A stretch of 64,000 bases of DNA. Origin: Curtobacterium sp. MCPF17_052 (GTDB lineage: Bacteria > Actinomycetota > Actinomycetes > Actinomycetales > Microbacteriaceae). The stretch spans positions 186,001 through 250,000 of the forward strand of contig NZ_QKSD01000004.1 in NCBI RefSeq assembly GCF_003234085.1, given 5' to 3'. This document shows positions 11,945-62,881 of the stretch, piece by piece; the stretch's first letter is position 1; every line of letters starts with the position of its first letter. A program made the translations under genes and the position numbers. The notes below the pieces were generated by a model. That model saw only the letters and a program-made list of their open reading frames with translations. It did no database searches and was not told where the DNA came from.

Positions 11945-12342
11945 CGCGCCGTCCCGTTCGCAGCCCCGGTTTCGGGCGCCGAGGCGGTCACCGGCTCGAG
12001 CGGGTCGACGTCGAAGCACCGGTGGGCACCCGTGTGGCACGCGGCTCCGACCTGCTGCACCGTGACGAGGAGCGTGTCGTCGTCGCAGTCCAGGGCGGCG
12101 GCACGGACGTACTGGGCGTGGCCCGACGTGTCCCCCTTGCGCCAGTACTCGCTCCGGGACCGCGACCAGAAGGTCACCCGGCCCTCGGTCAGGGTGCGGC
12201 GGAGGGCTTCACGGTCCATGTAGCCGAGCATGAGGACGTCCTTCGACGATTCCTCCTGCACGATGGCGGGGAGCAGTCCGTCCGTACCGAAGCGCGCGCG
12301 GTCGAGGACCGCTTCGGTGCTGGTGCTGGTGCTGTCGGTCAT
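11941..12342 (-). CDS. hisI: Phosphoribosyl-AMP cyclohydrolase
   Basis: HisI hydrolyses phosphoribosyl-AMP in the third step of histidine synthesis. The monofunctional 133-residue protein has the family core [12 protein letters not shown] and the Zn ligand cysteines in ALDCDDD and GAACHTG. The N-terminus begins with a short Ser/Thr repeat. A TAGGCT hexamer ends nine bases before the ATG, so the transcript probably starts within a few bases of the start codon. The stop overlaps the trpE start, so histidine and tryptophan genes share a transcript here. Confidence 0.97.
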
Positions 12343-12351
12343 GAGGGCACC

Positions 12352-12357
12352 AGCCTA
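12352..12357 (-). promoter_or_regulatory. Candidate -10 (TAGGCT) of hisI-trpE operon
   Basis: TAGGCT lies nine bases upstream of the hisI ATG with no Shine-Dalgarno between. A start 6-7 bases downstream would leave a leader of about 2-3 bases. This would be the promoter of hisI-trpE and probably the following trp genes. Confidence 0.55.
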
Positions 12358-12429
12358 CGGCCCTGTCCGGCGCGCTGGCTGCGGACGGACGTGCCGGACG
12401 GGAGGCCCGACCCGGCCGCCGGGACCGCG

Positions 12430-13233
12430 TCAGCGGACGACGTGGCCGGTCTGGCGGAGCGCGTCCTTGACGTCGCCGACGGTCATCTCGCCGCGGTGGA
12501 ACACGCTCGCCGCGAGCACCGCGTCCGCACCGGCGTCGACGGCGGGGGCGAAGTGCTCGACGCGCCCCGCGCCTCCCGAGGCGATGACCGGCACCGTGGA
12601 GACCGGACGGACCGCGGCGACGAGCTCGAGGTCGAAGCCGTTCTTCGTGCCGTCGGCGTCGATGGAGTTGACGAGGAGCTCCCCTGCGCCGCGTTCGACG
12701 GCCTCGCGCGCCCAGGCGATCGCGTCGATGTCGGTCTCGGTGCGACCGCCGTGCGTGGTGACCACGAAACCCGACGGCATCCGGGCGGAACGCTTGACGT
12801 CGAGCGACAGGACGACCGCCTGGGCACCGAAACGATCGGCGATCTCGGACACGAGCTCCGGGCGGGCGATCGCGGCGCTGTTGACGCCGATCTTGTCCGC
12901 GCCGCACTGCTGCAGGCGGGAGACGTCGTCGACGGTGCGGACCCCACCGCCGACGGTGAGCGGGATGAAGACCTGCTCGGCGGTGCGGGTGACGGTGTCC
13001 CACATCGTGGCGCGGTTCTCGACCGTCGCACCGACGTCGAGGAACGTCAGCTCGTCGGCGCCCTGCTCGTAGTACCGCGCGGCGAGCTCGACGGGGTCCC
13101 CGGCGTCCTGCAGGTCGAGGAAGTTGACGCCCTTGACGACCCGACCACCGGAGACGTCGAGGCACGGGATGACACGGACCGAGACCCCGCCGAGTGCGGC
13201 GGCCGGTGCGGTCGCGTCGGGTGCGCCGGTCAC
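12430..13233 (-). CDS. hisF: Imidazole glycerol phosphate synthase cyclase subunit
   Basis: HisF forms imidazole glycerol phosphate and AICAR from PRFAR with ammonia from HisH. The 267-residue TIM barrel has both catalytic aspartates in recognisable motifs, VIPCLDV near residue 25 and [11 protein letters not shown]. The two phosphate-binding glycine motifs TVGGGVR and ASGGAG are present. The GTG start overlaps the hisG stop (GTGA). hisH, hisA and hisB are not in the window. Confidence 0.98.
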
Positions 13234-14069
13234 AGGCGTGCGGCGTGGATCGGGCTGACGAGGATCGCCCGGGCGCCGAGGTCGTACAGCGCGTCCATGA
13301 TGAGGTTGGCGTCGTCGCGCGGGATCATCACGCGGACGGCGGACCAGGCGCGGTCGTGCAACGGCGAGACCGTCGGCGACTCGATGCCCGAGGCGATCGC
13401 GGTCGCCTGCTCGAGCAGGTCGGACGGGATGTCGTAGTCGAGCATGACGTAGCCGCGGGCCACCAGGACGCCCTGCAGCCGGCGTCGGAGCACGTCGATT
13501 CCGGAGATGGTCTCGTCGGTGGTGATGAGCACCGCGGTGGACTCGAGGATGACCGGGCCGAAGATCTCGAGTCCGGCGGCGCGCAGTGTGCTGCCGGTCG
13601 AGACGACGTCCGCCACGGCGTCGGCGACCCCGAGCCGGACGGCGCTCTCGACAGCGCCGTCGAGCTTCACGAGGGTCGCGGTGACGCCGTGCTGGGCGAG
13701 GAACTCGCCGACGAGGCCGGGGTAGCTCGTGGCGACGCGGACACCCTCGAGGTCCTGCAGCACGCTGTACCGGCCCGGGGCGCCGGCGAAGCGGAAGGTG
13801 GAGTCCGCGAACCCGAGCGCGTCGACCTCGTGCGCGGTCGACCCCGAGTCGAGCAGCAGGTCGCGGCCGGTGATCCCGACGTCGAGTGCGCCCGAGCCGA
13901 CGTAGGTGGCGATGTCGCGCGGACGGAGGAAGAAGAACTCCACCCCGTTGCGCTCGTCGATGAGGTGCAGCGCCTTCGGGTCACGGCGGCCGGCGTACCC
14001 GGCCTCCCGCAGCATCTCGGAGGCGGTCTCGGACAGTGAGCCCTTGTTGGGCACGGCGATGCGGAGCAT
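13230..14069 (-). CDS. hisG: ATP phosphoribosyltransferase (long form)
   Basis: HisG joins ATP and PRPP in the first step of histidine synthesis. At 279 residues it is the long form with a C-terminal regulatory ACT-like domain, so histidine feedback inhibition is expected from the family. It begins [11 protein letters not shown], the usual N-terminus, and has the motif ITGRDLL. AGGAAG precedes the ATG by 8 bases. The start lies 63 bases after hisE. Confidence 0.97.
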
Positions 14070-14132
14070 CAGGTCTGCTTCCTGGAGGAGGGGGTCGGTG
14101 ACGGTTCTGCGGTGCGCGGGGTGACGCGCTCC

Positions 14133-14396
14133 CTACAGATGTCGCCAGACGTCCGCCGGGGTCAGGCCCTTCGCGATCATGAGGACCTGCAGGTGGTACA
14201 CGAGCTGCGAGATCTCTTCCGAGGTGCGCTCGTCGCCCTCGTACTCGGCCGCCATCCAGACCTCGGCGGCTTCCTCCACGATCTTCTTGCCGATCTGGTG
14301 CACGCCGGCATCCAGTTCGGCGACGGTACCGGAGCCGTCCGGGCGCGTGCGCGCCTTCTCGGTCAGCTCCGCGAACAGGTCGTCGAACGTCTTCAC
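14133..14396 (-). CDS. hisE: Phosphoribosyl-ATP pyrophosphatase
   Basis: HisE removes pyrophosphate from phosphoribosyl-ATP in the second histidine step. The 87-residue protein is monofunctional and has the MazG-like motif [13 protein letters not shown] with the metal-binding acidic residues. It starts with GTG; there is no Shine-Dalgarno, but TAGCCT lies six bases upstream, suggesting a leaderless mRNA whose -10 overlaps the rpe stop codon. hisG follows. Confidence 0.97.
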
Positions 14397-14402
14397 GTTC
14401 CC

Positions 14403-14408
14403 AGGCTA
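14403..14408 (-). promoter_or_regulatory. Candidate -10 (TAGCCT) for leaderless hisE
   Basis: TAGCCT is exactly six bases upstream of the hisE GTG. Its first three bases are the TAG stop codon of rpe. No ribosome-binding site is present between. Confidence 0.55.
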
Positions 14409-15071
14409 CCGGTCTGCGAGCGCACGCTGTGCCGCCGACCGGAGATCGGTGATGCGGACTGCCGGCTCGCCGCCGTAGACCGCGGAGCCGGCGACGAGGG
14501 TGTCCGCGCCGCTCCGGACCGCCTCCGGCACGGTGTCGACCGCGATGCCACCGTCGACCTCGAGCCACACGTCGAGCCCCGACGCGTCGACCGCGGCGCG
14601 TGCGTCGGCGAGCTTCGGCATCACCGAGGTCATGAACGCCTGGCCACCGAACCCGGGCTCGACGGTCATCAGCAGGATCATGTCGTAGGCGTCGAGGTGG
14701 TGCAACACCCGGGTGATCGGGGTGCCGGGCTTCACGGCGACCGCGGCGCGGGCCCCGTTCGACCTGATGGCGGCAGCGGTGGCGACGGGGTCGGTCGCAG
14801 CCTCGAAGTGGAATGTGACGCTGGACGCGCCGGTCTCGGCGTACTTCGGCGCCTCGGTGTCGGCGTCGGTGATCATGAGGTGCACGTCGAGGGGCACGGG
14901 CGAGACCTGCTGCAGGCGCTGGACGATCGGCAGACCGAGGGTCAGGTTCGGGACGAAGTGGTTGTCCATCACGTCGACGTGCACCATGTCGGCGGTCTCG
15001 ATGCGCTGCAGCTCGCGCTCGAGGTTCGCGAAGTCGGCGGACAGGATGCTCGGCGAGATGCGGATCGTCAC
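14406..15071 (-). CDS. rpe: Ribulose-phosphate 3-epimerase
   Basis: Rpe interconverts ribulose 5-phosphate and xylulose 5-phosphate in the pentose phosphate pathway. The 221-residue TIM barrel shows MVHVDVMDNHFVPN, DVHLMI and VEPGFGGQAF, the metal-binding and phosphate-binding motifs of the family. The GTG start is preceded by TAGGCT at six bases and lacks a Shine-Dalgarno, so it looks leaderless. rsmB lies 50 bases upstream. Confidence 0.98.
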   Translation of the reverse strand: MTIRISPSILSADFANLERELQRIETADMVHVDVMDNHFVPNLTLGLPIVQRLQQVSPVPLDVHLMITDADTEAPKYAETGASSVTFHFEAATDPVATAAAIRSNGARAAVAVKPGTPITRVLHHLDAYDMILLMTVEPGFGGQAFMTSVMPKLADARAAVDASGLDVWLEVDGGIAVDTVPEAVRSGADTLVAGSAVYGGEPAVRITDLRSAAQRALADR

Positions 15072-15077
15072 CCGTCG

Positions 15078-15083
15078 AGCCTA
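15078..15083 (-). promoter_or_regulatory. Candidate -10 (TAGGCT) for leaderless rpe
   Basis: TAGGCT with a six-base spacer to the rpe GTG. No clear -35 was recognised in the G/C-rich upstream sequence. Confidence 0.6.
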
Positions 15084-15121
15084 CCGGCCCGGACCCGGCC
15101 GGCCCTCGAGCCGACAGCCCG

Positions 15122-16723
15122 TCAGGCGGTTCGGCGGAACAGTGCGATGAACATCGCGTCGGTCCCGATCCGGTGCGGCCAGAGCTGCACGGTCCGGCCG
15201 TCCGCGACCTGCGGGTCACGCGCGGCGACCGAGCGGACCACCGATGCGGTGTCGAGCTGCTCGAGCAGGTCCCCGTGCCGACGCATCAGGGCGTCGACCT
15301 GGCCGCGGGTCTCGGCCAGGTGCGGCGAGCACGTCACGTACGCCAGGGTGCCGCCCGGTGCGAGCACGCGGACCGCGGCCTCGAGCAGTTCCTCCTGCAG
15401 GACGGCCAGTTCGGCGACGTCCTCCGGCTGCTTGCGCCAGCGGGCCTCCGGACGGCGACGCAGCGCGCCGAGGCCGGTGCACGGGGCGTCGAGCAGGACG
15501 CGGTCGTACGTGACACCGGAGCCGTCGTGCCCGTAGCGGCGACCGTCACCCTCGACCACGGTGACGGTGTCACGGAAGTCGCGGAGGGCATCCCGAACGA
15601 GTCCCACCCGGGCCGGGACGAGTTCGTTGGCGACGAGGGTCGCGCCGGCCTGTGCGGCCTCGGCGGCCAGGAGCGCGGCCTTGCCTCCGGGGCCCGCGCA
15701 GAGGTCGAGCCAGCGTTCGCCGGCCCGCACCTCGGACGATCGGGACAGCGCGAGGGCCGCGAGTTGCGAGCCCTCGTCCTGGACGCGGAGCCGGCCGGCG
15801 GCGACGCCGGGGACGCGCGCCGGGTCACCGGTGACGCCGCGGATCCCGACGGGCGAGACCGGCAGGTCGGGAGCGGCCGGGGCGGGCTCGGGCGCCGCGT
15901 CGGCCTGGTCGGCCTCGGCCACCTCGGCGGCGTCGGCGTCGGCGCCCGGACCGACGGGAGGCACATCCCCCGTCTCGTCGTCGTCCGCCGCCACGCGGGC
16001 GGTCGCCTGCTCGACGTCCTCCGCCGACGCGACACCGGGCAACGCCGCGAGCTGGACCCGCGGTGCCTCGTTGTCGGCGGCGAGGAGCGCGACGAGTTCG
16101 TCACGAGACCGTTCCGCTGCCAGGGCGTCCCGGAGTGCCGACACGACCCACACCGGGTGCGACCAGCGCGTCGCGAGGAGTGCGTCCCCGCCGAGGCCCG
16201 CCGTCACCAGGGCGTCCCACTCCTCCGGGGTCTTGCCGGCGACCTTCCGCATCACGGCGTTGACGAAGCCGGTGGCGCGGGCGACGCCGACCTCGCGGGC
16301 GAGCTCGACCGTCGCGGAGACCGCCGCGTGGGTCGGGGTCCGCATGCCGAGCAGCTGGTGCACGCCGAGGCGCATGACGTCGAGCACGTCGGCTTCGATG
16401 AGGTCCGCCCGACGTCCGGACGCCACCGCGACCACCACGTCGTAGCGGCCGATCATGCGGATCGTGCCGTAGGTGAGTTCGGTGGCGAAACCGGCGTCCC
16501 GAGCGCTGAGCCCGGCTCGTCGGATGCGCGTCGGCAGGAGGAGGTTCGCGTACGCGTCGTCGACCTGGACGGCACGGAGGACGTCGAAGGCGACCCGACG
16601 GGCGCTCACCTGCCGGGGCTCGCGGGGTCGGCCGCCGGGGCGCCCGCCGGTCCGCCCGACACCGCTGCCCCCGCTGCGGCCGCCACGCTGCGATCCGCGT
16701 GACCGTGCCTGTTCCGCGCTCAT
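15122..16723 (-). CDS. rsmB: 16S rRNA m5C967 methyltransferase RsmB
   Basis: RsmB (Fmu/Sun) methylates a cytosine of 16S rRNA with S-adenosylmethionine. The 533-residue protein has an Arg/Gly-rich N-terminal stretch (first ~35 residues), a NusB-like RNA-binding domain, and a C-terminal Rossmann domain with LDLCAGPGGKAALLA and the two cysteines typical of m5C enzymes in DAPCTG and VTCSPH. A ~60-residue Asp/Ala/Pro-rich insert lies between the domains. The ATG at 16723 forms an ATGA overlap with the fmt stop, which fixes the start. Confidence 0.97.
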   Translation of the reverse strand: MSAEQARSRGSQRGGRSGGSGVGRTGGRPGGRPREPRQVSARRVAFDVLRAVQVDDAYANLLLPTRIRRAGLSARDAGFATELTYGTIRMIGRYDVVVAVASGRRADLIEADVLDVMRLGVHQLLGMRTPTHAAVSATVELAREVGVARATGFVNAVMRKVAGKTPEEWDALVTAGLGGDALLATRWSHPVWVVSALRDALAAERSRDELVALLAADNEAPRVQLAALPGVASAEDVEQATARVAADDDETGDVPPVGPGADADAAEVAEADQADAAPEPAPAAPDLPVSPVGIRGVTGDPARVPGVAAGRLRVQDEGSQLAALALSRSSEVRAGERWLDLCAGPGGKAALLAAEAAQAGATLVANELVPARVGLVRDALRDFRDTVTVVEGDGRRYGHDGSGVTYDRVLLDAPCTGLGALRRRPEARWRKQPEDVAELAVLQEELLEAAVRVLAPGGTLAYVTCSPHLAETRGQVDALMRRHGDLLEQLDTASVVRSVAARDPQVADGRTVQLWPHRIGTDAMFIALFRRTA

Positions 16724-17673
16724 GCGAGCACCTTCCCGTCGAGCGGTCCGAGCCCTCGGGCCCAGGCCGCAGCGTCCATCGCCTTCTTGCCGGCCGGCTG
16801 CACCTCGGTCAGCACGAGCGGTTCGTCCGCCGTCCCGACCAGCAGGGCACCGTCCACGAGCCGGAGCGCACCCGGCGCGAGGTGCGGGGCGGCGTCCTCC
16901 GGGCCTCCCGGCCGGCCGTCGGGTGCACCGTACCGGCGGGCCCGCAGCAGCTTCACCCGGGTCTCGCCGAGGTGTGCGAACGCACCGGGCTCCGGGGTGA
17001 CGCCGCGGAGCCTGGCGTGCACCGCGGCGGCCGGGCCGGCGAAGTCGGTCCGGCCGTCGTCGAGCGTGAGCTTCGGGGCCGACGACGGAGCGCCGACCTG
17101 CTCGGTGGCGACGGCGGTGCCGGCGGCGATGGCGTCGACGACCCGCACGACGACGTCGGCACCGGTCACCGCCATCGCGCCGAGGACCTCGCCGGAGGTT
17201 GCCTCCGGGTCGATCGTGAACGGCTCGGCCGCGAAGACCGGGCCCGCGTCCAGGGCCTCGACCAGCTGGAACACCGTCGCGGCCGTGGTCGTCGCACCGG
17301 CCATCACGGCACGCTGCACGGGTGCGGCACCCCGGTACGCCGGCAGGTCGGAGAAGTGCAGGTTGACCCAGCCGAGCCGCGGGGCGTCGAGGGCCGGGCG
17401 GCGGAGCAGCGCCCCGTACGCGACGATCACACCGAGGTCGACGTCGAGCGCCGCGATCCGGGCCGTCACCTCGTCGTCCACGCGGGAGGCCTCGATCACC
17501 GGCAGTCCGAGCTCCGCCGCGGCCTGCGCGACCGGCGTGGGCGTCAGCACGCGCTTCCGGCCCTGCGGGGTCGGCGGGCGGGTCAGCACCGCCGCGATCT
17601 CGTGGTCGGACGCCGCCAGAGCACGGAGGGTGGGGACCGCGGCAGCGGGACTGCCGGCGACGACGAGACGCAT
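16720..17673 (-). CDS. fmt: Methionyl-tRNA formyltransferase
   Basis: Fmt formylates initiator Met-tRNA. The 317-residue protein starts MRLVVAGSPAAAVPTL, has the formyl-THF site GWVNLHFSDLPAYRGAAP (the usual SLLP element reads SDLP) and the catalytic Asp in LDAGPVF. The C-terminal anticodon-side domain follows from about residue 210. The ATG at 17673 is chosen from family length; only a weak GGAG lies upstream. It overlaps rsmB and faces away from the plus-strand gene at 17790. Confidence 0.97.
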   Translation of the reverse strand: MRLVVAGSPAAAVPTLRALAASDHEIAAVLTRPPTPQGRKRVLTPTPVAQAAAELGLPVIEASRVDDEVTARIAALDVDLGVIVAYGALLRRPALDAPRLGWVNLHFSDLPAYRGAAPVQRAVMAGATTTAATVFQLVEALDAGPVFAAEPFTIDPEATSGEVLGAMAVTGADVVVRVVDAIAAGTAVATEQVGAPSSAPKLTLDDGRTDFAGPAAAVHARLRGVTPEPGAFAHLGETRVKLLRARRYGAPDGRPGGPEDAAPHLAPGALRLVDGALLVGTADEPLVLTEVQPAGKKAMDAAAWARGLGPLDGKVLA

Positions 17674-17756
17674 CGGACCAGTCTCCCACGAGCCGCGGCC
17701 GCGTCCGGGCGGCCGCCCTCCGCGCGGGCCTGGGGACGCGCTGAGGCACGCCTGCC

Positions 17757-17762
17757 TACGGT
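17757..17762 (+). promoter_or_regulatory. Candidate -10 (TACGGT) for the 17790 gene
   Basis: TACGGT on the plus strand 27 bases before the ATG would give a ~20-base leader containing the AAGGAG ribosome-binding site. Confidence 0.45.
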
Positions 17763-17789
17763 CGCTGGCATCTCGACCGAAGGAGCACC

Positions 17790-18119
17790 ATGACCACCGA
17801 CGCACTGCCGCTGCCGGACTTCGACCACCTGCCGCTCGGCAACCTCGCCGAGCACGTCCGCCCCCTCGACCGCGACCAGCTGCAGACCCTGCTCGAGCAT
17901 GAGCGGGCCCACGGGAACCGGCTGCCGGTCGTGGAGGTGCTGACCTCCCGGATCGCCGCACTCGAGGCCGGGGCCGAACCGACCGGCTCGGTGCCCGAGC
18001 ACCTCCCCGAGGTCCAGCAGGGCACCGGCGGCTCCCCGGCCGTCACCCCGGCCACGTCGGGTCCGGTCATCAACCCGCCGTCACACGGGGACCCGACCAA
18101 CCCGGCCCAGCCACGCTGA
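17790..18119 (+). CDS. Conserved hypothetical protein (109 aa)
   Basis: A soluble 109-residue protein. The first ~70 residues (LPLPDFDHLPLGNLAEHVRP onward) look like a small helical domain with EHERAHGNRLPVVEVLTSRI, followed by a Pro/Thr/Gly-rich tail. I recall similar actinobacterial proteins of unknown function with LPDYDHLPL-like starts. AAGGAG precedes the ATG by 5 bases. It is divergent from fmt and not in an obvious operon. No function can be assigned. Confidence 0.85.
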   Translation: MTTDALPLPDFDHLPLGNLAEHVRPLDRDQLQTLLEHERAHGNRLPVVEVLTSRIAALEAGAEPTGSVPEHLPEVQQGTGGSPAVTPATSGPVINPPSHGDPTNPAQPR

Positions 18120-18200: not shown

Positions 18201-18228
18201 CACAGGCGATTCCCTGAAAGGAACGAAC

Positions 18229-44338: not shown

Positions 44339-45721
44339 TCAGTCGCCGCGGATGATCCCGCGGAGCCGGTCGAGCCGCGGGCCGATCTCGCGCTCGAAGC
44401 CGTTGCCGGTCGGTGTGTAGTACTCGGTGCCGTCCAGGGCGTCGGGCAGGTACTGCTGCGTCGCGACCCCGTGCTCGGCGTCGTGCGAGTAGACGTACCC
44501 CTTGCCGTGTCCGAGCCGCTTCGCTCCGGCGTAGTGCGCGTCGCGGAGGTGGTTCGGCACGACACCCATCCGGCCGGCCTTGACGTCGGCGACGGCCTGG
44601 TTGACCCCGTTGTACGCCGCGTTCGACTTCGGCGCGGTCGCCAGGTAGACGACGGCCTCGGCGAGCGGGATCCGGCCTTCGGGCATGCCGATCAACTGCA
44701 CGGCCTGTGCGGCTGCGACGGCGATCGGCAACGCCTGCGGATCCGCCATGCCGATGTCCTCGGACGCCGAGATGATGATCCGTCGGGCGATGAACCGCGG
44801 GTCCTCGCCGGCCTCGATCATCCGCGCCAGGTAGTGCAGCGCCGCGTCGACGTCACTCCCCCGCACCGACTTGATGAAGGCGCTGATCACGTCGTAGTGC
44901 TCGTCGCCCTGCCGGTCGTACCGGAGGAGTGCTCGGTCCACCGCCGCGGCGACCGTGTCGGCGTCGACGACCGGGGCGGTGCCGGCCGCACGCTCGTCGT
45001 CGTCCTGGGCCGCCACCGCGGACGCCGCCGCTGCCTCGAGCGCGGTGAGGGCCCGGCGGGCGTCACCGGAGGCCAGACGGACGATCGCGGCCCGCGCTTC
45101 GTCACCGAGGACCACCGCACCACGCAGGCCCCTGGCGTCCTCGACCGCGCGGTCGACCAGCATGCCGAGGTCGGCGTCGGTCAGCGGCTTGAGCGTGAGG
45201 AGCAGCGAGCGCGAGAGCAGCGGCGAGATGACCGAGAAGGACGGGTTCTCGGTCGTCGCGGCGATGAGGATCACCCAGCCGTTCTCGACCCCGGGCAGCA
45301 GGGCGTCCTGCTGCGCCTTGCTGAACCGGTGGATCTCGTCGAGGAACAGGACCGTCGTCGCCCCGTAGAGGTCCCGGTGCGTCAGGGCCTTCTCCATGAC
45401 CTCCCGGACGTCCTTGACACCGGCGGTCACCGCGGACAGCTCGACGAACTCACGGCCGGACTGCCGGGCGATCGCCTGCGCCAGGGTCGTCTTGCCGGTG
45501 CCGGGCGGGCCCCACAGGATCACCGAGACGCCGCCGGGGCTCTCCCGCGAGCCGGTCGCCAGCTGCACGAGCGGCGATCCGCGTCCGAGGAGGTGCTGCT
45601 GACCGGCCACCTCGTCGAGACTGGTCGGGCGCATGCGGACGGCCAGCGGTACCGAACCCTGGGCCAACCCGGTCCGGCCACCCGTCGTGGGCGCGTTCAT
45701 CCCCGACCGGTCAGTTGCCAT
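44339..45721 (-). CDS. rarA: Replication-associated recombination protein RarA
   Basis: RarA (MgsA) is an AAA+ ATPase that acts at stalled replication forks. The 460-residue protein has Walker [12 protein letters not shown], Walker [10 protein letters not shown], sensor ATTENPSF, and the C-terminal tetramerisation domain with [22 protein letters not shown] at 45721 (MATDRSGM) is chosen because TACGAT lies exactly six bases upstream, fitting a leaderless mRNA; ATG at 45700 is the alternative. It is divergent from the cyclophilin gene. Confidence 0.96.
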
Positions 45722-45727: not shown

Positions 45728-45733
45728 ATCGTA
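45728..45733 (-). promoter_or_regulatory. Candidate -10 (TACGAT) for leaderless rarA
   Basis: TACGAT with a six-base spacer to the rarA ATG and no Shine-Dalgarno. Confidence 0.55.
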
Positions 45734-49072: not shown

Positions 49073-49537
49073 TCACTCTGCAGACGCCACGGACGCGGCG
49101 GCCCGGTGGTGCTTGCGGAGCCACCAGAGTCCGGCGATCGGCAGCACGAGCGGGGCGAATGCGTAGCCGAGGCCGTAGTACGACCAGATCGTGTCGTCCG
49201 GGAACAGCTGCCGATCGAGCAGTGAGAGCGTCCCGATCACGAGCACACCGGTCATCTCGAAGACGATCGTCACGCAGGCGACCCGGTACCAGGCGCGGCC
49301 CGGCACGATGAGGGCGACCATGGCGACGATGTACACGACGGCGGCGATGGCGCTGAGCGTGTACGAGAACGGCGCGAACGAGAACTTCTCCGCGATCTGC
49401 ACGATGCTCCGGCCGGTCGCGGCCAGGGCGAGGATGCCGTAGACGGCGATCAGGACCCGTCCGACACCGCTCGCCAGGGTCGACGTGCGACGGCCCCGGG
49501 CCGGGCGGTCGGTTCCTGCGGAGGACTTGATCACCAT
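49073..49537 (-). CDS. Hypothetical membrane protein (154 aa)
   Basis: A 154-residue protein with four hydrophobic segments between a basic N-terminus and a short charged C-terminus (WWLRKHHRAAASVASAE). No family was recognised with confidence. ATG at 49537 is chosen because TAGGAT lies seven bases upstream, matching the leaderless pattern of this region. It ends 17 bases before ribF, so the two may be co-transcribed. Confidence 0.8.
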   Translation of the reverse strand: MVIKSSAGTDRPARGRRTSTLASGVGRVLIAVYGILALAATGRSIVQIAEKFSFAPFSYTLSAIAAVVYIVAMVALIVPGRAWYRVACVTIVFEMTGVLVIGTLSLLDRQLFPDDTIWSYYGLGYAFAPLVLPIAGLWWLRKHHRAAASVASAE

Positions 49538-49544: not shown

Positions 49545-49550
49545 ATCCTA
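49545..49550 (-). promoter_or_regulatory. Candidate -10 (TAGGAT) for a near-leaderless start at 49537
   Basis: TAGGAT with a seven-base spacer to the ATG; no Shine-Dalgarno between. Confidence 0.5.
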
Positions 49551-49995: not shown

Positions 49996-50933
49996 GTGTT
50001 CGCTCCTGTCGCGGTCGGGAAGTTCGTGATGACCCGGAGCTGTCCACGCCGGACGGCGACGAGGCCGACGAGCCGGTCGGCACCCGTGGCGATCGCCGCG
50101 ACCGGGCCGTCGGTGTCGGGGTGGTCCGCAGTGATCCGCTTGCCGTCCCCGAGGTCCTTCGCCTGGGCGCCGTCGAGCTGCACGACCGGGAACAGGCGAC
50201 GGGCGACGTCGGTCGGTCGGGCGAGGGCGGCGCGGACGTCGACGGCGTCGTCTTCGAGGTCGACGGCGTCCTCGACCGCGAACGGGCCGACGACGGTCCG
50301 ACGGAGTGCGGTGAGGTGGGCGCCGGTGCCGAGGGCGGCGCCGACGTCGCGGGCGAGCGCACGGATGTACGTACCGGACGAGCACGAGACGACGACGTCG
50401 AGGTCGATCACGGCGACGTCGGCCCCGTCCACCGAGACGACCCGGTCGGCTCGGCCCCGCACGTCGAACCGGTCGACGGTCACACGTCGGGCCTTGAGCG
50501 TGACCGCCTCCCCCTTGCGGGCCAGGTCGTAGGCACGTCGACCGTCGACCTTGATCGCGCTGACCGTCGACGGCACCTGGTCGATCGGACCGCGGAGCGC
50601 CGCCACGGCAGCTTCGATCGCGTCGTCACTCACCGTGCCCGCGGGGGCACCGTGGGCCGTGATCGGGTCACCGTCGGCGTCGTCCGAATCGGTGCCGACA
50701 CCGAGCCGGATGGTGGCCGTGTAGGTCTTGCCGAGGCCGACGAGATGCGTCAGGAGGCGTGTCGACGGACCGACGCCGAGGATCAGGAGCCCGGTCGCCA
50801 TCGGGTCCAGGGTCCCGGCATGTCCGATCTTCTTGAGGTCCAGGCGTCGTCGGGCGATCGAGACCACGCGGTGGCTCGAGATGCCCTGCGGCTTGTCGAC
50901 GAGGAGGATGCCGTCGGGCGGGGTCACGAGCAC
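49992..50933 (-). CDS. truB: tRNA pseudouridine-55 synthase
   Basis: TruB makes pseudouridine 55 in the T-loop of tRNAs. The 313-residue protein has GILLVDKPQGISSH, GHAGTLDPMATGLLILGVG with the catalytic Asp, and SCSSGTYIRALARDVG. The GTG at 50933 has TAGTCT exactly six bases upstream and no Shine-Dalgarno, so it looks leaderless. A GTG two codons later is possible. Confidence 0.97.
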   Translation of the reverse strand: MLVTPPDGILLVDKPQGISSHRVVSIARRRLDLKKIGHAGTLDPMATGLLILGVGPSTRLLTHLVGLGKTYTATIRLGVGTDSDDADGDPITAHGAPAGTVSDDAIEAAVAALRGPIDQVPSTVSAIKVDGRRAYDLARKGEAVTLKARRVTVDRFDVRGRADRVVSVDGADVAVIDLDVVVSCSSGTYIRALARDVGAALGTGAHLTALRRTVVGPFAVEDAVDLEDDAVDVRAALARPTDVARRLFPVVQLDGAQAKDLGDGKRITADHPDTDGPVAAIATGADRLVGLVAVRRGQLRVITNFPTATGANT

Positions 50934-50939: not shown

Positions 50940-50945
50940 AGACTA
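50940..50945 (-). promoter_or_regulatory. Candidate -10 (TAGTCT) for leaderless truB
   Basis: TAGTCT with a six-base spacer to the truB GTG. Confidence 0.55.
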
Positions 50946-50971: not shown

Positions 50972-51418
50972 TCAGCAGGCGTCGTTCCACTCGCGTCGGG
51001 GGTGCTCCGGGTCCGTGACGTCGAGCACCGCGGAGGCGGCGATCTTCACGTCGGCCCGCCGCTCGAGCCGGCCGGTCTCCTGCTCGACCCACAGGGACCA
51101 CCGCCACAGGGTGCGGGTGCTCGGCGCGAGGAGCCCGTGGCCGTGCACGACGAGCACGCCCTCACCGGCCCCGGTCGTGCGGAACGGGGTCACCAGGTCG
51201 TTCCGCAGCGTGTCCACGTCGGTGGACGGGGCAGCCGCAGCCATGGCCTGGACGCCGTGCTGCTCGAAGCCCGCGACGAGCGCCGCCGCGACGTGTTCGA
51301 GGTCGGTCCCGTCCTGCCCGTCGACGGCGATGACCGTCCGGTTCGTCCCGACCTGCGCGACCACCTCGCTCGCGATCGCGGCCATGGTGTCGATCTCCTG
51401 CGGTGCCCAGCGTGCCAT
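50972..51418 (-). CDS. Uridine-kinase-like protein lacking the P-loop
   Basis: A 148-residue protein whose layout resembles small actinobacterial uridine/nucleoside kinase-like proteins: VIAVDGQDGT where the P-loop would be, VLVVHGHGLLAPSTRTLWRWSLWVE where the Walker B and following segment fit, and SAVLDVTDPEHPRRE at the end. The Walker A GKT/S is missing (GQDGTDLEH), so it is unlikely to bind ATP in the usual way. The ATG at 51418 has TACGGT six bases upstream. The homology is from pattern recall and should be treated as tentative. Confidence 0.7.
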   Translation of the reverse strand: MARWAPQEIDTMAAIASEVVAQVGTNRTVIAVDGQDGTDLEHVAAALVAGFEQHGVQAMAAAAPSTDVDTLRNDLVTPFRTTGAGEGVLVVHGHGLLAPSTRTLWRWSLWVEQETGRLERRADVKIAASAVLDVTDPEHPRREWNDAC

Positions 51419-51424
51419 GCCACC

Positions 51425-51430
51425 ACCGTA
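51425..51430 (-). promoter_or_regulatory. Candidate -10 (TACGGT) for the leaderless 51418 gene
   Basis: TACGGT with a six-base spacer to the ATG. It shares two bases with the plus-strand -10 of mutY. Confidence 0.55.
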
Positions 51431-51434
51431 GGCT
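51429..51434 (+). promoter_or_regulatory. Candidate -10 (TAGGCT) for leaderless mutY
   Basis: TAGGCT with a six-base spacer to the GTG at 51441. It overlaps the oppositely directed -10 at 51425-51430 by two bases. Confidence 0.55.
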
Positions 51435-51440
51435 GTCGTG

Positions 51441-52370
51441 GTGAACGTGGGCAGAGCCTCCAGTCCGTCCGTGGACGACGCGACGATCCACAGGGCTGCG
51501 GCGATCTCGTCCCCCTTGCTGGCCTGGTACCGCCGGGAGGCTCGTGACCTGCCCTGGCGTCGTGTCGGCTTCCCGGCCTGGGGCACCCTGGTCAGCGAGA
51601 TCATGCTCCAGCAGACGCAGGTCGCGCGGGTCGTCCCCCGACTGGAGGCGTGGCTCACCCGGTGGCCGACCCCCGCGGACCTCGCGGCGTCGCCCCCGGC
51701 GGACGCGGTGCGTGCCTGGGACCGGCTCGGCTACCCGAGAAGGGCCCTCGCCCTGCACGCGGCCGCGACGGTCATCGCCGAACGGCACGGCAACGTCGTC
51801 CCCCGTGACGTCGACGACCTCCTGGCCCTCCCCGGGATCGGGGACTACACCGCCCGGGCCGTCGCGGTCTTCGCGTACGGCGACCGGCACCCCGTCGTCG
51901 ACGTCAACGTCCGGCGTGTCCTGGCACGTGCCGTCCTCGGCCAGGGCGAGCCCGGGCCGGCGAAGGCCAAGCAGGACCTGCCGCTGATGGAGGCGACCCT
52001 GCCGGCCGACCGCGACGACGCCGCGGCGACGAACGCGGCGGTGATGGAGCTCGGAGCACTCGTGTGCGTCGCGCGGTCCCCCGCCTGCGACGCCTGCCCG
52101 ATCGCGGACCGCTGCGCCTGGCGAGCGGCCGGGTACCCGGAGCACGACGGACCGCGCGCGCCGAAGCAGTCCCGGTTCGCCGGGAGCGACCGACAGGTCC
52201 GCGGGATGATCATGGCCGAACTGCGGGCGAGCGACGTCCCCGTCACGCCGACGGAGATCGCGATGGTGTGGCCGGATGCCGGTCAGCGGGACCGGGCGCT
52301 CGCGTCCTTGCTGCGTGACGGACTCGCCGAGGGCGACGACCTCGAGGGCTACCGACTGCCGCGCGGCTGA
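51441..52370 (+). CDS. mutY: A/G-specific adenine glycosylase MutY
   Basis: MutY removes adenine paired with 8-oxoguanine. The 309-residue protein has the catalytic Glu in SEIMLQQTQV, the HhH motif LPGIGDYTARAVAVFAYG, the catalytic Asp in VVDVNVRRV, and the 4Fe-4S cysteines with C-6-C-2-C-5-C spacing (CVARSPACDACPIADRC). The C-terminal ~80 residues look like a small winged-helix domain rather than the NUDIX-like 8-oxoG domain of E. coli MutY. The GTG at 51441 is chosen over the one at 51438 for the leaderless spacing. Confidence 0.95.
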   Translation: MNVGRASSPSVDDATIHRAAAISSPLLAWYRREARDLPWRRVGFPAWGTLVSEIMLQQTQVARVVPRLEAWLTRWPTPADLAASPPADAVRAWDRLGYPRRALALHAAATVIAERHGNVVPRDVDDLLALPGIGDYTARAVAVFAYGDRHPVVDVNVRRVLARAVLGQGEPGPAKAKQDLPLMEATLPADRDDAAATNAAVMELGALVCVARSPACDACPIADRCAWRAAGYPEHDGPRAPKQSRFAGSDRQVRGMIMAELRASDVPVTPTEIAMVWPDAGQRDRALASLLRDGLAEGDDLEGYRLPRG

Positions 52371-57430: not shown

Positions 57431-57513
57431 CGAGGTGCCTCCGTATTCAGATGAGTCACTCCCGCGGATGGAACCGCGCGGAAGCCGTCGTCGATCGTAC
57501 CGCAGGAATGGCG

Positions 57514-57543
57514 GAGGCCCGTGGCGGATCCGCCACGGGCCTC
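57514..57543 (-). terminator. Terminator after proS, GGAGGCC family
   Basis: A perfect 30-bp palindrome beginning gaggcccgtggcgg, 18 bases past the proS stop. It shares its core with the hairpins at 18772-18815 and 59394-59435. Confidence 0.85.
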
Positions 57544-57561
57544 GCTTCGGACGCCGGTGTG

Positions 57562-59313
57562 TCAGATCGCCCGGACCGCCTCGAGCAGTTCCGCGACCGG
57601 CAGGTCACGACGCTCACCGGTCGCCCGGTTCCAGAGCTCGACGACGCCGTCGGCAGCGCCGCGCCCCGCGACGACGACGACCGGCATGCCGAGCAGTTCC
57701 GCGTCCCGGAGCTTGACGCCCGGCGACACCTTCGGCCGGTCGTCGTAGACCACGTCGAAGCGCTCGCCCTCGAGCTGCGCGACGATCGACTCCGCCAGGT
57801 CGTACGCCGTGGCGTCCCGCCCGGTGGCCACCACGTGCACGTCGAACGGGGCGACGTGCTTCGGCCAGGCCAGGCCCTTCTCGTCGTTGTGCGCCTCGGC
57901 CAGGATCGCCAAGATGCGGGTCACGCCGATGCCGTACGAGCCCATCGTCACGGTCGCCAGCTTGCCGTTCTCGTCCTGCACCTTCAGCCCGAGCGCCTCG
58001 GCGTACTTCCGGCCGAGCTGGAACACGTGACCGATCTCCATGCCCCGAGCGGTCTCGAGCGGACCGGAGCCGTCGGGCGCGGGGTCACCGGCACGGACGT
58101 CGGACACCTCGGCGACGCCGTCGGCGACGAAGTCCCGCCCGGCCACCAGGCCGGAGACGTGGACGCCGCGCTCGTTGGCTCCGGTGACCCAGGAGGTGCC
58201 GTCCACCACGCGCGGGTCCACGAAGTAGCGCAGGCCGGTCGCACTGTCCGCTCCGAGGACCTGCGGGCCGATGTAGCCCTTGACCAGGCCACGGTGCTTG
58301 CGGAAGTCGTCGTCGCCGGCGGCTTCGACCTCGGCCGGGGCGAAGGCGACCTCGGCGCGCTTGAGGTCGACGTCACGGTCGCCGGGCAGGCCGACCACCA
58401 CGATCTCTCGCGTGCCGTCGAGGTGCGTCAGTGCCAGGACGACGTTCTTCAGCGTGTCCGCCGCGGTCCACGGGGCGCCGTCGCGCGGGGCGACCGCGTT
58501 GGCGTGCGCCACGAGCGACTCGATCGTCGGCGTGTCCGACGCCGGCAGCAGCACGGGCTCCGGCAGGCCGTCGACCGGCTTCGCGTCGGGCACCGGGGTG
58601 ACGTACGCCTCGACGTTGGCCGCGTAGCCGCCGGCACTCCGCACGAAGGTGTCCTCGCCGACCGCGATCGGGTGCAGGAACTCCTCGGACTTCGAGCCGC
58701 CCATGGCGCCGGCGTCGGCCTTGACGATGACGTACTCGAGGCCCAGGCGCGCGAAGATCCGCTCGTAGGCGTCGCGCATCACCTGGTAGCTGCGCTCGAG
58801 ACCAGCGTCGGAGACGTCGAACGAGTAGGCGTCCTTCATCGTGAACTCACGGCCGCGCAGCAGCCCGGCGCGCGGACGGGCTTCGTCGCGGTACTTGTCC
58901 TGGATCTGGAAGAGCGTGACGGGGAGGTCCTTGTAGGACGAGTACAGGTCCTTCACGAGGAGCGCGAACATCTCTTCGTGGGTGGGCGCGAGTAGGTAGT
59001 CGGAGCCCTTGCGGTCCTGCAGGCGGAACATGCCGTCGCCGTACTCGGTCCAGCGGTTCGTGGCCTCGTAGGGCTCGCGCGGCAGGAGCGCGGGCAGCAG
59101 GACCTCCTGCGCACCGGCCGCGACCATCTCGTCGCGGATGATGCCCTCGATCTTCGCGCGGACGCGGAGTCCGAGCGGCAGCCAGGCGAAGATGCCCGGC
59201 GACTGGCGGCGGACGTAGCCGGCGCGGACGAGCAGCTTGTGACTCGTCACCTCCGCGTCGGAGGGGTCGTCGCGGAGCGTGCGGAGGAAGAGGTGAGAGA
59301 GCCGTGTGACCAC
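57562..59313 (-). CDS. proS: Prolyl-tRNA synthetase (bacterial type)
   Basis: ProS charges tRNA-Pro. The 583-residue protein is the bacterial form with an editing insert between motifs 2 and 3: class II motif 2 as [20 protein letters not shown], the Ybak-like insert (about residues 225-385), and motif 3 [17 protein letters not shown], followed by the anticodon-binding domain. The GTG at 59313 has TAGGCT six bases upstream and no Shine-Dalgarno, a leaderless pattern. Confidence 0.98.
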
Positions 59314-59319
59314 GCCGTC

Positions 59320-59325
59320 AGCCTA
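59320..59325 (-). promoter_or_regulatory. Candidate -10 (TAGGCT) for leaderless proS
   Basis: TAGGCT with a six-base spacer to the proS GTG. Confidence 0.6.
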
Positions 59326-59393
59326 GCGGCGCGCGGTCACGACGCGACCCGCCTGTGGACGGCGGGGCCGCGGCGCCGGACCTGTGGCGGAAC

Positions 59394-59435
59394 GGACGGG
59401 AGGCCCGTGGCGGTGTCGCCACGGGCCTCCCGTCC
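59394..59435 (-). terminator. Terminator after ispG, GGAGGCC family
   Basis: A perfect 19-bp stem starting ggacgggaggcccgtggcg around GTGT, 33 bases past the ispG stop. It shares its core with two other hairpins in the window. Confidence 0.87.
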
Positions 59436-59468
59436 AGCAGTCGGCTGCGAACAGCGACCGCGCGGCTG

Positions 59469-60620
59469 CTAGGGAGTGACGACCAGCGGCTTGCCGGTGC
59501 CGGCGGCGGGACCCATCTCGTCGGCGAGACGGTTCGCCTCCTCGATGAGGGTCTGGACGATCTCGGCCTCGGGCACCGTCTTGATGACCTGGCCCTTCAC
59601 GAAGATCTGGCCCTTGCCGTTGCCCGAGGCGACGCCGAGGTCGGCCTCACGAGCCTCGCCCGGACCGTTCACGACGCAGCCCATGACGGCGACACGCAGC
59701 GGCACGGTCATGCCCTCGAGACCCGAGGTGACGTCGTTCGCCAGCTGGTAGACGTCGACCTGCGCGCGGCCACAGCTCGGGCAGGAGACGATCTCGAGCT
59801 TGCGCTCGCGGAGGTTCAGCGACTGCAGGATCTGCAGGCCGACCTTCACCTCCTGTGCGGGCGGAGCCGAGAGGGACACACGGATGGTGTCGCCGATGCC
59901 CTCGCCGAGCAGGATGCCGAACGCGGTCGCGCTCTTGATCGTGCCCTGGAACTCCGGGCCCGCCTCGGTCACGCCGAGGTGCAGCGGCCAGTCGCCGCGC
60001 TCGGCGAGTTGGCGGTACGCCTTGACCATGATGACGGGGTCGTTGTGCTTGACCGAGATCTTGAAGTCGTGGAAGTCGTGCTCCTCGAACAAGGAGGCTT
60101 CCCACACGGCCGACTCGACGAGCGCCTCGGGCGTGGCCTTGCCGTACTTCTGCATCAGGCTGGGCTCCAGCGAACCGGCGTTCACGCCGATGCGCAGGGA
60201 CACGCCCGCAGCCTTCGCGGCGGCGGCGATGGCACCGACCTGGTCGTCGAACTTCCGGATGTTGCCCGGGTTCACGCGCACCGCGGCGCAGCCGGCGTCG
60301 ATGGCCTGGAAGACGTACTTCGGCTGGAAGTGGATGTCCGCGATCACCGGGATCTGGGACTTCTTGGCGATGATCGGCAGCGCGTCGGCGTCGTCCTGGC
60401 TCGGCACGGCGACACGGACGATGTCGCAGCCCGACGCGGTGAGCTCGGCGATCTGCTGCAGGGTCGCGTTGATGTTCGTGGTCGGCGTCGTGGTCATCGA
60501 CTGCACCGACACGGGGGCGTCGCCACCGACCAGGACCTTGCCGACCCGGATCTGCCGGGACTTGCGACGAGGGGCCAGGGTGTCGGGGGCCTTCGGCATT
60601 CCGAGGTTCACTGCGGGCAC
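59469..60620 (-). CDS. ispG: 4-Hydroxy-3-methylbut-2-enyl diphosphate synthase
   Basis: IspG (GcpE) makes HMBPP in the MEP isoprenoid pathway with a 4Fe-4S cluster. The 383-residue protein has [27 protein letters not shown], and cluster cysteines in SCPSCGRAQ and CVVNGPGEA. The GTG at 60620 ([14 protein letters not shown]) is chosen because TAGAGT lies seven bases upstream. In many Actinobacteria it directly follows rip1 (site-2 protease) and dxr; here two genes intervene. Confidence 0.97.
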
Positions 60621-60627
60621 GTCCCGA

Positions 60628-60633
60628 ACTCTA
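60628..60633 (-). promoter_or_regulatory. Candidate -10 (TAGAGT) for leaderless ispG
   Basis: TAGAGT with a seven-base spacer to the ispG GTG. Confidence 0.5.
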
Positions 60634-60713
60634 CGCGCTCGTCCGGACAGCACGGTCCGCCGGGACTCAGGCTGGGTCGGCGGCAGCGGCCGTGTGTGCT
60701 GCCCGGGTCCGCG

Positions 60714-61352
60714 TCAGAGCGTGTCGACGACGGTGACGAGCGGGGCGTACAGCCGCATCGCGTCGAGTGCCCGGGCGTGGTCGACGTCGCTCGCGCCGGC
60801 ACACGCGTCGGCCACCACGGTGACCCGGACGCCCGCATCCGCGGCCGCCAGGGCGGTCGAGAGGACGCAGCAGTCCGTGGAGACCCCGGTGAGCACCAGG
60901 TGGCGTCGCTCCGGCCCGGCTCCGGTGTCGGTGTCGGTCTCGGTGTCGGTGACGGTGTCGGTCTCGGTGACGGCCTGGAGGCTCGTCCCCCACTTCCCGA
61001 AGGTCGGCTCGGTGACGACGGGGACGGACGACGTCGTGACCCCGCTCGGCGTCCCCGTCGCCGCGAGTGCGGCGAACGGCTCGGTGAGTGCGTACAGCTC
61101 GTCGTCGTCCGGGACGAGCGCGAACGGCCAGTCGCGGTAGTACGGCACCCAGGCACCCGTCGGCTCCGCGGGCGCGACGAACCGGGTGACGACGGTGCGA
61201 CCCGCGAAGCGCGGCAGGAGCCGCTCGATCGCGGCCGAGGCCTCGGCGAACCGCGGTGCCGCCCACGGGCTGTCGCCGGTGAACACCCGCTGCATGTCGA
61301 TGACGACGAGCCAGGCGTTCGCCGTGTCCACCGCCACGTCCGCTGCCGTCAC
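60714..61352 (-). CDS. Isochorismatase-family cysteine hydrolase
   Basis: A 212-residue cysteine hydrolase of the isochorismatase/nicotinamidase family. The catalytic Asp lies in VVIDMQRVF, a candidate Lys in TFGKWGTS, and the Cys in GVSTDCCVLSTALAA. A Thr/Asp/Glu repeat of 16 residues (VTETDT-like), coded by eight GGTNNC hexamers, interrupts the region between the Lys and Cys segments. The GTG start overlaps the NCS1 permease stop (GTGA), so they are co-translated; the substrate is probably what the permease imports (an amide or purine/pyrimidine breakdown product). The exact substrate is unknown. Confidence 0.88.
   Translation of the reverse strand: MTAADVAVDTANAWLVVIDMQRVFTGDSPWAAPRFAEASAAIERLLPRFAGRTVVTRFVAPAEPTGAWVPYYRDWPFALVPDDDELYALTEPFAALAATGTPSGVTTSSVPVVTEPTFGKWGTSLQAVTETDTVTDTETDTDTGAGPERRHLVLTGVSTDCCVLSTALAAADAGVRVTVVADACAGASDVDHARALDAMRLYAPLVTVVDTL
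60924..60971. repeat. Eight GGTNNC hexanucleotide repeats in the cysteine hydrolase gene
   Basis: Eight consecutive six-base units (ggtgtc, ggtctc or ggtgac) coding for alternating Thr with Val/Asp/Glu. Changes in copy number would keep the frame. Confidence 0.9.
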
Positions 61353-62869
61353 GGGCGGAGCTCGGCATCCGGCACGCGCGACACCGGCTCGGTGACCGGC
61401 AGCGCCTCCTGCCGACGGACGGCGCGGCCGCCGGACAGCAGCGTGCCGAGGAACCCGACGACGAGCGCCACGAGGACCCCGAGGTTGGCGTACGCCCAGG
61501 GCCCGGTCACCCCGCCGAGACCGAACGGTCCCAGCAGGAAGCCCTGCCAGTGCACGAGTTCCGCCCCCGGCGTCGAGTTGGTCACGAGCCCCCACCCGAG
61601 CACCGAACCGATGACCACCAGCGCGATGGCGGACCACCGGACGCTGCCGTAGCGACCCCGCGGGGTGTCGAGCTCGCCCTCGGCGTAGGCGCGTCGACGG
61701 AGCAGGACGTCCGCGACGAACACCCCGCACCATGCGGCGATCGGGACGCCGAGGGTGATGAGGAACGCCTGGAACGGACCGATGAAGTCCGTCGCGAAGA
61801 ACACCACGAAGACCGCCCCGGCGACCATGAGCACGCCGTCGACACCGGCGGCCACCGGTCGCGGGATCCTGACCCCCGCGCTGAGGAGCGCGAGCCCCGA
61901 GGAGTAGATGTCGAGGACTGCTCCGCCCACGAGCCCGAGGATCGCGACCACCGCGAACGGCACGAGGAACCAGGTCGGCATCACCGTCACCAGGGCACCG
62001 ATCGGGTCCGCCGAGATCGCTGCGTGCAGTTCCTCCGAGGACCCGGCGAGCATCACCCCGATGACGACGAGGACTGCGGGCGCCAGGGCACCGCCGAAGG
62101 TCGTCCACCCGACGACCCCGCCGGTGGAGGACGATCGCGGCAGGTAGCGCGAGTAGTCCGCAGCCGCGTTCACCCAGCCGAGACCGAAGCCCGTCATGAC
62201 GAGGACCAGGGCACCGATGACGTTCTGCGCGCTCCCCGCCGGCAGGGCGGCCAGCGTGCCGAAGTCGATCGAGGGCAGCGCGAGCACCACGTAGACGATC
62301 GTCAGCACGCCGGTGACGACGGTGATCCAGGTCTGCATCCGCATGATCACGTCGAAGCCCGCGATGCCGGCCCCGACCACGAGCGCCGCGACGACGACCA
62401 GGGCGACGAGCTTCGTCAACACGCCGTCGTCCCAGCCGAGCGCCTGGAACACCGTCGAGGTCGCGAGCACGGCGAGGGCGGCCAGCGCGGTCTCCCACCC
62501 GACGGTGAGGACCCAGCTGAGGAAGGACGGCAACCGGTTGCCGTGCACGCCGAACGCGGCACGACTGAGGACCATCGTCGGGGCGGAGCCCCGCTTGCCG
62601 GCGATCGCGACCACGCCGCACAGCAGGAACGAGAAGACGACACCGATCACCGAGACCACGGTCGCCTGCGCCAGCGAGATCCCGAAGTCCAGGACGAACG
62701 AGCCGTAGGCCAGGCCGAGCACGGAGATGTTGGCGGCGAACCACGGCCAGAACAGCCCGCGCGGACGGCCCTTCCGCTCCGACTCGGTGATCACGTCGAT
62801 GCCCTGCCGCTCGACGGTGCGGGTCGGGTCGGCGATCGGCCGCTTCGGGGCCGTCGGCTCTGCACTCAT
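61349..62869 (-). CDS. NCS1-family purine/cytosine-type permease
   Basis: A 506-residue membrane transporter of the nucleobase:cation symporter-1 family (CodB/Fur-like). About 12 transmembrane segments begin near residue 38 (GLFWPWFAANISVLGLAYG); family features include GTxxxxAxP-like GKRGSAPTMVLSRAAFG and the NAAADYSRYLPR motif. It would import a nucleobase, hydantoin or related ring compound by cation symport; the substrate cannot be named from sequence alone. The ATG has TACGCT six bases upstream and no Shine-Dalgarno. Confidence 0.93.
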   Translation of the reverse strand: MSAEPTAPKRPIADPTRTVERQGIDVITESERKGRPRGLFWPWFAANISVLGLAYGSFVLDFGISLAQATVVSVIGVVFSFLLCGVVAIAGKRGSAPTMVLSRAAFGVHGNRLPSFLSWVLTVGWETALAALAVLATSTVFQALGWDDGVLTKLVALVVVAALVVGAGIAGFDVIMRMQTWITVVTGVLTIVYVVLALPSIDFGTLAALPAGSAQNVIGALVLVMTGFGLGWVNAAADYSRYLPRSSSTGGVVGWTTFGGALAPAVLVVIGVMLAGSSEELHAAISADPIGALVTVMPTWFLVPFAVVAILGLVGGAVLDIYSSGLALLSAGVRIPRPVAAGVDGVLMVAGAVFVVFFATDFIGPFQAFLITLGVPIAAWCGVFVADVLLRRRAYAEGELDTPRGRYGSVRWSAIALVVIGSVLGWGLVTNSTPGAELVHWQGFLLGPFGLGGVTGPWAYANLGVLVALVVGFLGTLLSGGRAVRRQEALPVTEPVSRVPDAELRP

Positions 62870-62875
62870 GGGGTG

Positions 62876-62881
62876 AGCGTA
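62876..62881 (-). promoter_or_regulatory. Candidate -10 (TACGCT) for the leaderless NCS1 permease gene
   Basis: TACGCT with a six-base spacer to the ATG at 62869. Confidence 0.55.

Follow-up and report, generated by a model that had tools for sequence, protein, structure and literature searches.

Why should ten genes in one stretch of actinobacterial DNA carry a hexamer of the form TANNNT at an almost fixed distance before their start codons? The stretch, hereafter the window, comprises 64,000 nucleotides of Curtobacterium sp. MCPF17_052 (Microbacteriaceae; contig NZ_QKSD01000004.1, positions 186,001 to 250,000) and has a G+C content of 71.3%. A first-pass annotation had drawn attention to these hexamers, eight separated from the start codon by six bases and two by seven, and had read them as promoter elements of leaderless mRNAs. 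Hexamers, start codons and spacings (counted here as the bases between hexamer and start codon) are exactly as it gave them, when verified in the sequence. We have little doubt that the hexamers are sigma-70-type -10 elements giving leaderless mRNAs, because the peak in their spacing, their conservation, the near-chance frequency of Shine-Dalgarno (SD) matches, the lack of a -35 signal, the preference for C at -1 and the gene context all point to it.

The hexamer, occupying positions -12 to -7, would be read by a housekeeping sigma-70-type factor; RNA polymerase would melt it and begin the transcript six or seven bases further on, with the A or G of ATG or GTG as its first base. Initiation on the start codon would yield an mRNA without a 5' leader, whose 5'-terminal start codon the ribosome would recognise directly, with no need of an SD sequence. 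Both the start of transcription at the start codon and the leaderless translation are what we infer from the sequence. Some 15-21% of the genes sampled from this genome fit the pattern, most of which either diverge from the gene upstream or stand well apart from it, and roughly this proportion of genes in the genus Curtobacterium probably lacks a 5' leader.

Seven of the ten hexamers lie on the minus strand at spacing 6: TAGCCT (14403..14408) before hisE (GTG at 14396; gene 14396-14133), TAGGCT (15078..15083) before rpe (GTG at 15071; 15071-14406), TACGAT (45728..45733) before rarA (ATG at 45721; 45721-44339), TAGTCT (50940..50945) before truB (GTG at 50933; 50933-49992), TACGGT (51425..51430) before a gene with its ATG at 51418 (51418-50972), TAGGCT (59320..59325) before proS (GTG at 59313; 59313-57562) and TACGCT (62876..62881) before the gene for an NCS1-type permease (ATG at 62869; 62869-61349). 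Two more, also on the minus strand, stand at spacing 7: TAGGAT (49545..49550) before a gene with its ATG at 49537 (49537-49073) and TAGAGT (60628..60633) before ispG (GTG at 60620; 60620-59469). The tenth, TAGGCT on the plus strand (51429..51434), precedes mutY (GTG at 51441; 51441-52370) by six bases and has its TA in common with the hexamer of the 51418 gene. HisE, Rpe, TruB, ProS and IspG score above the cut-offs of their own NCBIfam families, while RarA, MutY and the permease are assigned by the Pfam domains MgsA_C, HhH-GPD and Transp_cyt_pur, respectively, their NCBIfam matches falling below cut-off. The products of the 49537 and 51418 genes match no Pfam or NCBIfam family at E 0.001; at E 0.5 an NCBIfam search returns only matches far below cut-off for the 51418 gene and none for the 49537 gene. 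In keeping with a Curtobacterium genome, MutY finds its closest named matches in Curtobacterium pusillum (86% identity) and Curtobacterium sp. VKM Ac-1393 (85%), in a comparison from which very near genomes may be missing.

Could ten such hexamers have arisen by chance, or through the choice of start codons? Words containing A and T, paired with convenient start codons, might give the appearance of a signal, the more so as the starts had originally been picked by hand and the TA before hisE belongs to the stop codon of rpe. When the plausible ATG and GTG starts of the 55 window genes called by a codon-usage script blind to upstream motifs are scanned, exactly the same ten genes are recovered, and the chance of the hexamer from composition alone is about 0.006 per start. 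We extended the analysis to 40 hand-picked stretches of 20 kb each, spread over eight contigs of the same genome assembly (31 contigs totalling 3.54 Mb, completeness 76.6%). Four of them come from the contig that holds the window; together with the window the 40 make up 864 kb and 675 genes, 663 of which have 60 bases of upstream sequence. At these motif-blind starts TANNNT is found six bases before the codon in 65 cases and seven bases before it in 37; spacings 8 and 9 give seven and two, and none of the remaining spacings from 0 to 30 gives more than five, so that 102 of the 663 starts (15%) carry it at 6-7. The count by offset against a shuffled control, which the first-pass annotation had called for, covered the initial 464 kb of the sample with its 362 starts: spacings 6 and 7 together hold 49 hexamers, and 1000 dinucleotide shuffles yield 1.21 on average and never more than 6. 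Among the 60 possible arrangements of T, A and T within six positions only TA...T peaks in this part, with 32 occurrences at spacing 6, the other 59 giving at most six at any spacing from 0 to 30. Internal in-frame start triplets have TANNNT at spacing 6-7 in only two of 5235 cases.

The overlap of hisE and rpe deserves separate comment. In the window genome the TAG of the hisE hexamer is the stop codon of rpe, and this arrangement is found in six of the 21 genomes of the genus (the window genome included; loci L152-L172). The remaining 15 close rpe with a TGA that lies 59-116 bases ahead of the hisE start, and TAGCCT nevertheless stays seven bases before that start. The hexamer is therefore retained for its own sake, and these 15 genomes rule out that it exists only because rpe happens to stop there. 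With TANNNT also found before every congener orthologue examined (below), chance and start-picking are contradicted by the offset and conservation tests alike, and we reject them, giving them a practically negligible probability.

The signal is not a peculiarity of the window. When the hexamer is allowed to choose among near-equal starts, 144 of the 675 genes (21%) have it; this figure uses the motif for start choice and the 15% figure does not, since 42 of the 144 starts then move. On this count 10 of 55 genes in the window and 134 of 620 elsewhere in the sample carry the hexamer (Fisher p = 0.61). The window is un-enriched in hexamer genes and the signal is spread throughout the sample, so that the emphasis first placed on a fixed spacing across a single region falls away.

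The hexamer is strongly conserved within the genus. TANNNT stands six or seven bases before an in-frame start codon, no more than 60 bases from the aligned start, in all 196 congener orthologues (18/18 for proS and for ispG, and 20/20 for each of the other eight genes); with the other spacings between 0 and 39 the same search never finds more than 21 of the 196. Six of the ten genes show no variation among the congeners at any base of the hexamer. Its middle bases change in rpe (four variants), rarA (three variants), truB (seven hexamers) and the 49537 gene (TAGAAT in 13, TAGGAT in four, TAGACT in three), every variant retaining the TANNNT form. The original statement that only T1, A2 and T6 are constant thus holds between genes and fails between orthologues of those six. 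Agreement with the window sequence by position, which is anchored on the hexamer so that T1, A2 and T6 agree by construction, is 0.88-0.93 at the middle bases, 0.99 and 0.95 at three and two bases before T1 (positions -15 and -14), and 0.69-0.82 at six to four bases and at one base before it. Without the 51418/mutY pair, in which the elements overlap, the values at -15 and -14 are 0.99 and 0.94, and agreement from 30 to seven bases before T1 is 0.12-0.62. Despite this near-identity between orthologues, positions -15 and -14 show a mere G/C preference from gene to gene, and may be compared with the SRN found before M. tuberculosis hexamers (below).

Conservation weakens beyond the genus. In a set that adds the window genome itself and two non-congener proS loci, TANNNT at 6-7 is found in 20 of 21 proS loci, 19 of 19 ispG loci and 21 of 21 loci for each other gene. 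The single proS miss (L125) comes from another family of the order, and one of the two order-level proS loci retains the motif. By eye, TANNNT can be seen at spacing 6 in proS of Agromyces (L026) and in both proS (L023) and ispG of Salinibacterium, and at spacing 8 in proS of Microbacterium (L025). For ispG in other families of the order (L120-L129), T1 is found at 6-7 in none of ten loci; six have GATACT or GATAAT at spacing 6, two have CATACT or CATAAT at 6 or 7, and two have nothing similar. Those eight loci, with in-frame ATG or GTG starts, keep -11A and -7T and have -12T replaced, so that a strict TANNNT search may undercount leaderless genes.

If the hexamer is a functional signal, does it act in transcription or in translation? 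It might be an unusual ribosome-binding site or a translation enhancer on mRNAs with ordinary leaders, an idea to which the near-fixed distance to the start codon and the AGGA within TAGGAT of the 49537 gene lend some colour. The middle bases, however, vary from gene to gene, and those of four genes also from one orthologue to the next. The 49537 gene has TAGAAT or TAGACT, without AGGA, in 16 of 20 congeners, with TA...T retained. The positions that are kept, T1, A2 and T6, are what we take to be the main sigma contacts. None of the 114 genes that overlap an upstream gene of the same direction has the hexamer, although a translation signal should serve such genes equally well. Given the variable middle bases, the loss of AGGA and this gene context, a disguised ribosome-binding site is rejected as very improbable.

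The other sequence features fit the reading of the hexamers as -10 elements. A five-base SD core precedes three of the 102 hexamer genes (1.4 expected with the hexamer held fixed) as against 139 of the 561 others (35.3 expected), and a four-base core 16 of 102 (17.9 expected) as against 295 of 561 (153.4 expected); by the five-base core, SD matches are thus near chance in hexamer genes and about four times chance in the others. A -35 signal is absent over the 102 sites, since relative entropy does not exceed 0.12 bits at any of the 30 positions before the hexamer. C stands directly before the start codon (-1) in 69 of the 102. As to gene context, with gaps that were computed after motif-based start choice and are somewhat biased by it, the hexamer is present in 14 of 18 divergent genes at gaps of 15-49 bases, 47 of 110 at 50-149 and 16 of 72 at 150 or more, and in five of 40 co-directional genes at gaps of 0-14, 14 of 49 at 15-49, 31 of 131 at 50-149 and 10 of 98 at 150 or more. 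An upstream neighbour was called for 137 hexamer genes, of which 118 are divergent (77) or lie at least 50 bases behind a co-directional gene (41). The claim that the hexamers are -10 elements, not ribosome-binding sites in disguise, thus finds support in offset, shuffles, all 196 orthologues, SD counts, the extended -10 positions, C at -1 and the loss of AGGA.

A closer alternative accepts the -10 element and places the transcription start site (TSS) a few bases off the start codon, giving a very short leader or an mRNA that lacks the first bases of the codon. The spacing is that of the window in 157 of the 196 orthologues and switches between 6 and 7 in the remaining 39, and the seven hexamers at spacing 8 (of 663) stand above the spacings beyond, both of which would suit such an offset. 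The commonest spacing, 6, and the C before the codon, in contrast, agree with a transcript whose first base is the start-codon purine, and we think such an offset unlikely. A separate observation in the window concerns TAGGCT at 12352-12357 on the minus strand, nine bases before an ATG at 12342; since spacings 8-9 are slightly above farther spacings in the sample (9 of 663), that gene may have a leader of two to three bases.

Several points weigh against the conclusion that the hexamers specify leaderless mRNAs. A shortage of TTG would be expected among leaderless genes; the hexamer genes start with 51 ATG, 50 GTG and one TTG, and the others with 263 ATG, 287 GTG and 11 TTG, so that the difference (1/102 against 11/561, p = 0.70) is not significant, with few TTG starts overall. 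Nineteen hexamer genes, out of the 137 for which an upstream gene was called, lie fewer than 50 bases behind a co-directional gene, and five hexamers overlap its stop codon (five of the 144 in the sample coincide with that of the upstream gene). The 42 hexamer-based starts that differ from the score-only start are shifted upstream in 22 cases and downstream in 20. The hexamer is found at the aligned start in 163 of the 196 orthologues and at a different start in 33. These 33 include 18 of the 49537 gene and 11 of the permease gene, both of which have variable N-termini. The permease hexamer is at the aligned start in nine of 20 congeners and shifted in 11, and for the 49537 gene only two of 20 congeners have it at the aligned start, with 15 having a hexamer start 14 codons further in. 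Because the shifted hexamers accompany shifted starts, hexamer and start codon move together, and the N-terminus of the 49537 protein differs within the genus. Finally, the congener rows are mutually non-independent, the genes were called by a home-made, un-benchmarked script, and the sampled stretches were of our own choosing and non-random.

How do these genes compare with leaderless systems already described? Zheng et al. (2011; PMC3160421) found TANNNT about 12 bp upstream of bacterial start codons, counted from the first T, took it as the -10 box and a sign of leaderless genes, used dinucleotide shuffles, and reported more than 20% leaderless genes in Actinobacteria, with the three middle positions carrying little information at high GC. 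The Curtobacterium genes do not differ in kind from its TA-led genes and are further cases of them. The fixed spacing and its use in calling starts, put forward in the first-pass annotation as the new part, are accordingly not new, because PMC3160421 reports the same signal, position, shuffle test and abundance together with the calling of leaderless genes. The words Leifsonia, Clavibacter and Microbacteri- are absent from its main text, and we found no literature on Microbacteriaceae or Curtobacterium about leaderless mRNAs, judging by titles and the openings of abstracts. The signal is real, well conserved in the genus and probably read correctly as to its mechanism; it is usual in this group of bacteria and in principle not new.

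The closest experimental parallel is in Mycobacterium tuberculosis, for which Cortes et al. (2013; PMC3898074) mapped TSSs and found a TANNNT -10 element without a conserved -35, preceded in about half of cases by SRN, which covers the two extended -10 positions. The TSSs there are mostly purines with C commonest at -1, and 22% of the 2,524 genes expressed in exponential phase are leaderless, as are seven of the 14 tRNA synthetase genes with a primary TSS. The Curtobacterium hexamer genes share the TANNNT, the lack of a -35, the extended -10 preference and the C at -1, and proS of the window may be set beside those tRNA synthetase genes. The M. tuberculosis TSSs were mapped experimentally, whereas those of the Curtobacterium genes are predicted from sequence. 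Other descriptions of actinobacterial promoters without a conserved -35 (PMC8407463, in addition to PMC3898074) agree with the lack of such a signal here. The motif also informs the choice of start codon, as for rarA, the 51418 gene, mutY and ispG, whose motif-based starts differ from the codon-usage calls and are kept by the congeners. GeneMarkS-2 works with several models of upstream patterns for a single genome (StartLink paper, PMC9581028).

What is to be made of the two hexamers that share a TA? The divergent 51418 gene and mutY are separated by a spacer of 22 bases (51419..51440, no strand assigned) that holds two opposed -10 hexamers and a six-base discriminator on each side. The shared TA is at 51429-51430, and the implied distance between the two predicted TSSs is 23. 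In the sample, 14 of 100 divergent pairs have hexamers on both sides; in four of these the start codons are fewer than 38 bases apart, and all four share a TA, at distances of 23, 23, 24 and 25. Over the 21 genus genomes the distance-23 shared-TA pattern occurs at 55 sites, against five for a reversed control, the mutY site making up about 17 of the 55 on our own reading of the listing. Other genera of the family (38 genomes) have it at 85 sites, against 25 for the control, and 49 further genomes drawn from across the phylum at 95 against 68, a weak excess.

Some divergent pairs in the Microbacteriaceae may be served by a minimal promoter, some 22 bp long and used in both directions, whose opposed -10 elements have a TA in common; both mRNAs would be leaderless and transcription of the two genes mutually exclusive. 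We give this proposal slightly less than an even chance. For the 51418 gene and mutY the exclusion would follow from polymerase occupying the shared site in one direction at a time. If the proposal is true, the further upstream contacts of each promoter would lie in the first codons of the other gene. The shared-TA sites offer a compact natural test of leaderless two-way promoters.

Bidirectional promoters with symmetrical -10 elements have been described with TSS distances of 7-25 bp, usually 18 bp, where -11A pairs with -7T (PMC10268837). The 51418/mutY arrangement resembles these in that the opposed -10 elements overlap, RNA polymerase could bind one site either way and the distance of 23 falls within 7-25 bp. 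It differs in that distance of 23 (24-25 with seven-base spacing), in the shared TA at -12/-11 and in the inferred leaderless state of both genes. The corresponding 18-bp symmetric leaderless pattern was found at one site in the 21 genus genomes, against 10 for the reversed control, and the mutY site does not have the typical 18-bp symmetry. In the lysG/lysE pair of M. tuberculosis (PMC5648196) divergent -10 and -35 motifs overlap, with an inverted repeat between them and a spacer of 108 bp. Like 51418/mutY, this is an actinobacterial divergent pair with overlapping promoters and a leaderless transcript on one side, but the leaderless lysE transcript comes from an additional, distinct promoter that does not overlap that of lysG. 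The portion of PMC5648196 available to us describes no 22-bp spacer with both sides leaderless. An archaeal, TATA-based case of a leaderless bidirectional promoter comes from P. furiosus (PMC6640164).

Further shared-TA sites in the same genome, likewise with start codons 23 bases apart, lie at C6:94307-94334, C12:82062-82089, C3:135663-135690 and C27:3503-3530. The pairs in which the pattern is found, other than 51418/mutY, are dapB and an acetyltransferase gene, genes for heme oxygenase and a siderophore-interacting protein, genes for a histidine phosphatase and an acetyltransferase, and two genes without a family. Some shared-TA cores are palindromic or nearly so, that of mutY not being among them, and these may instead be operators of a regulator. 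The site between the heme oxygenase and siderophore-interacting protein genes (L245, C12:82062-82089) has the nearly palindromic core GTGAGGTTAGCCTCAC, which may resemble an iron-repressor (DtxR/IdeR) box.

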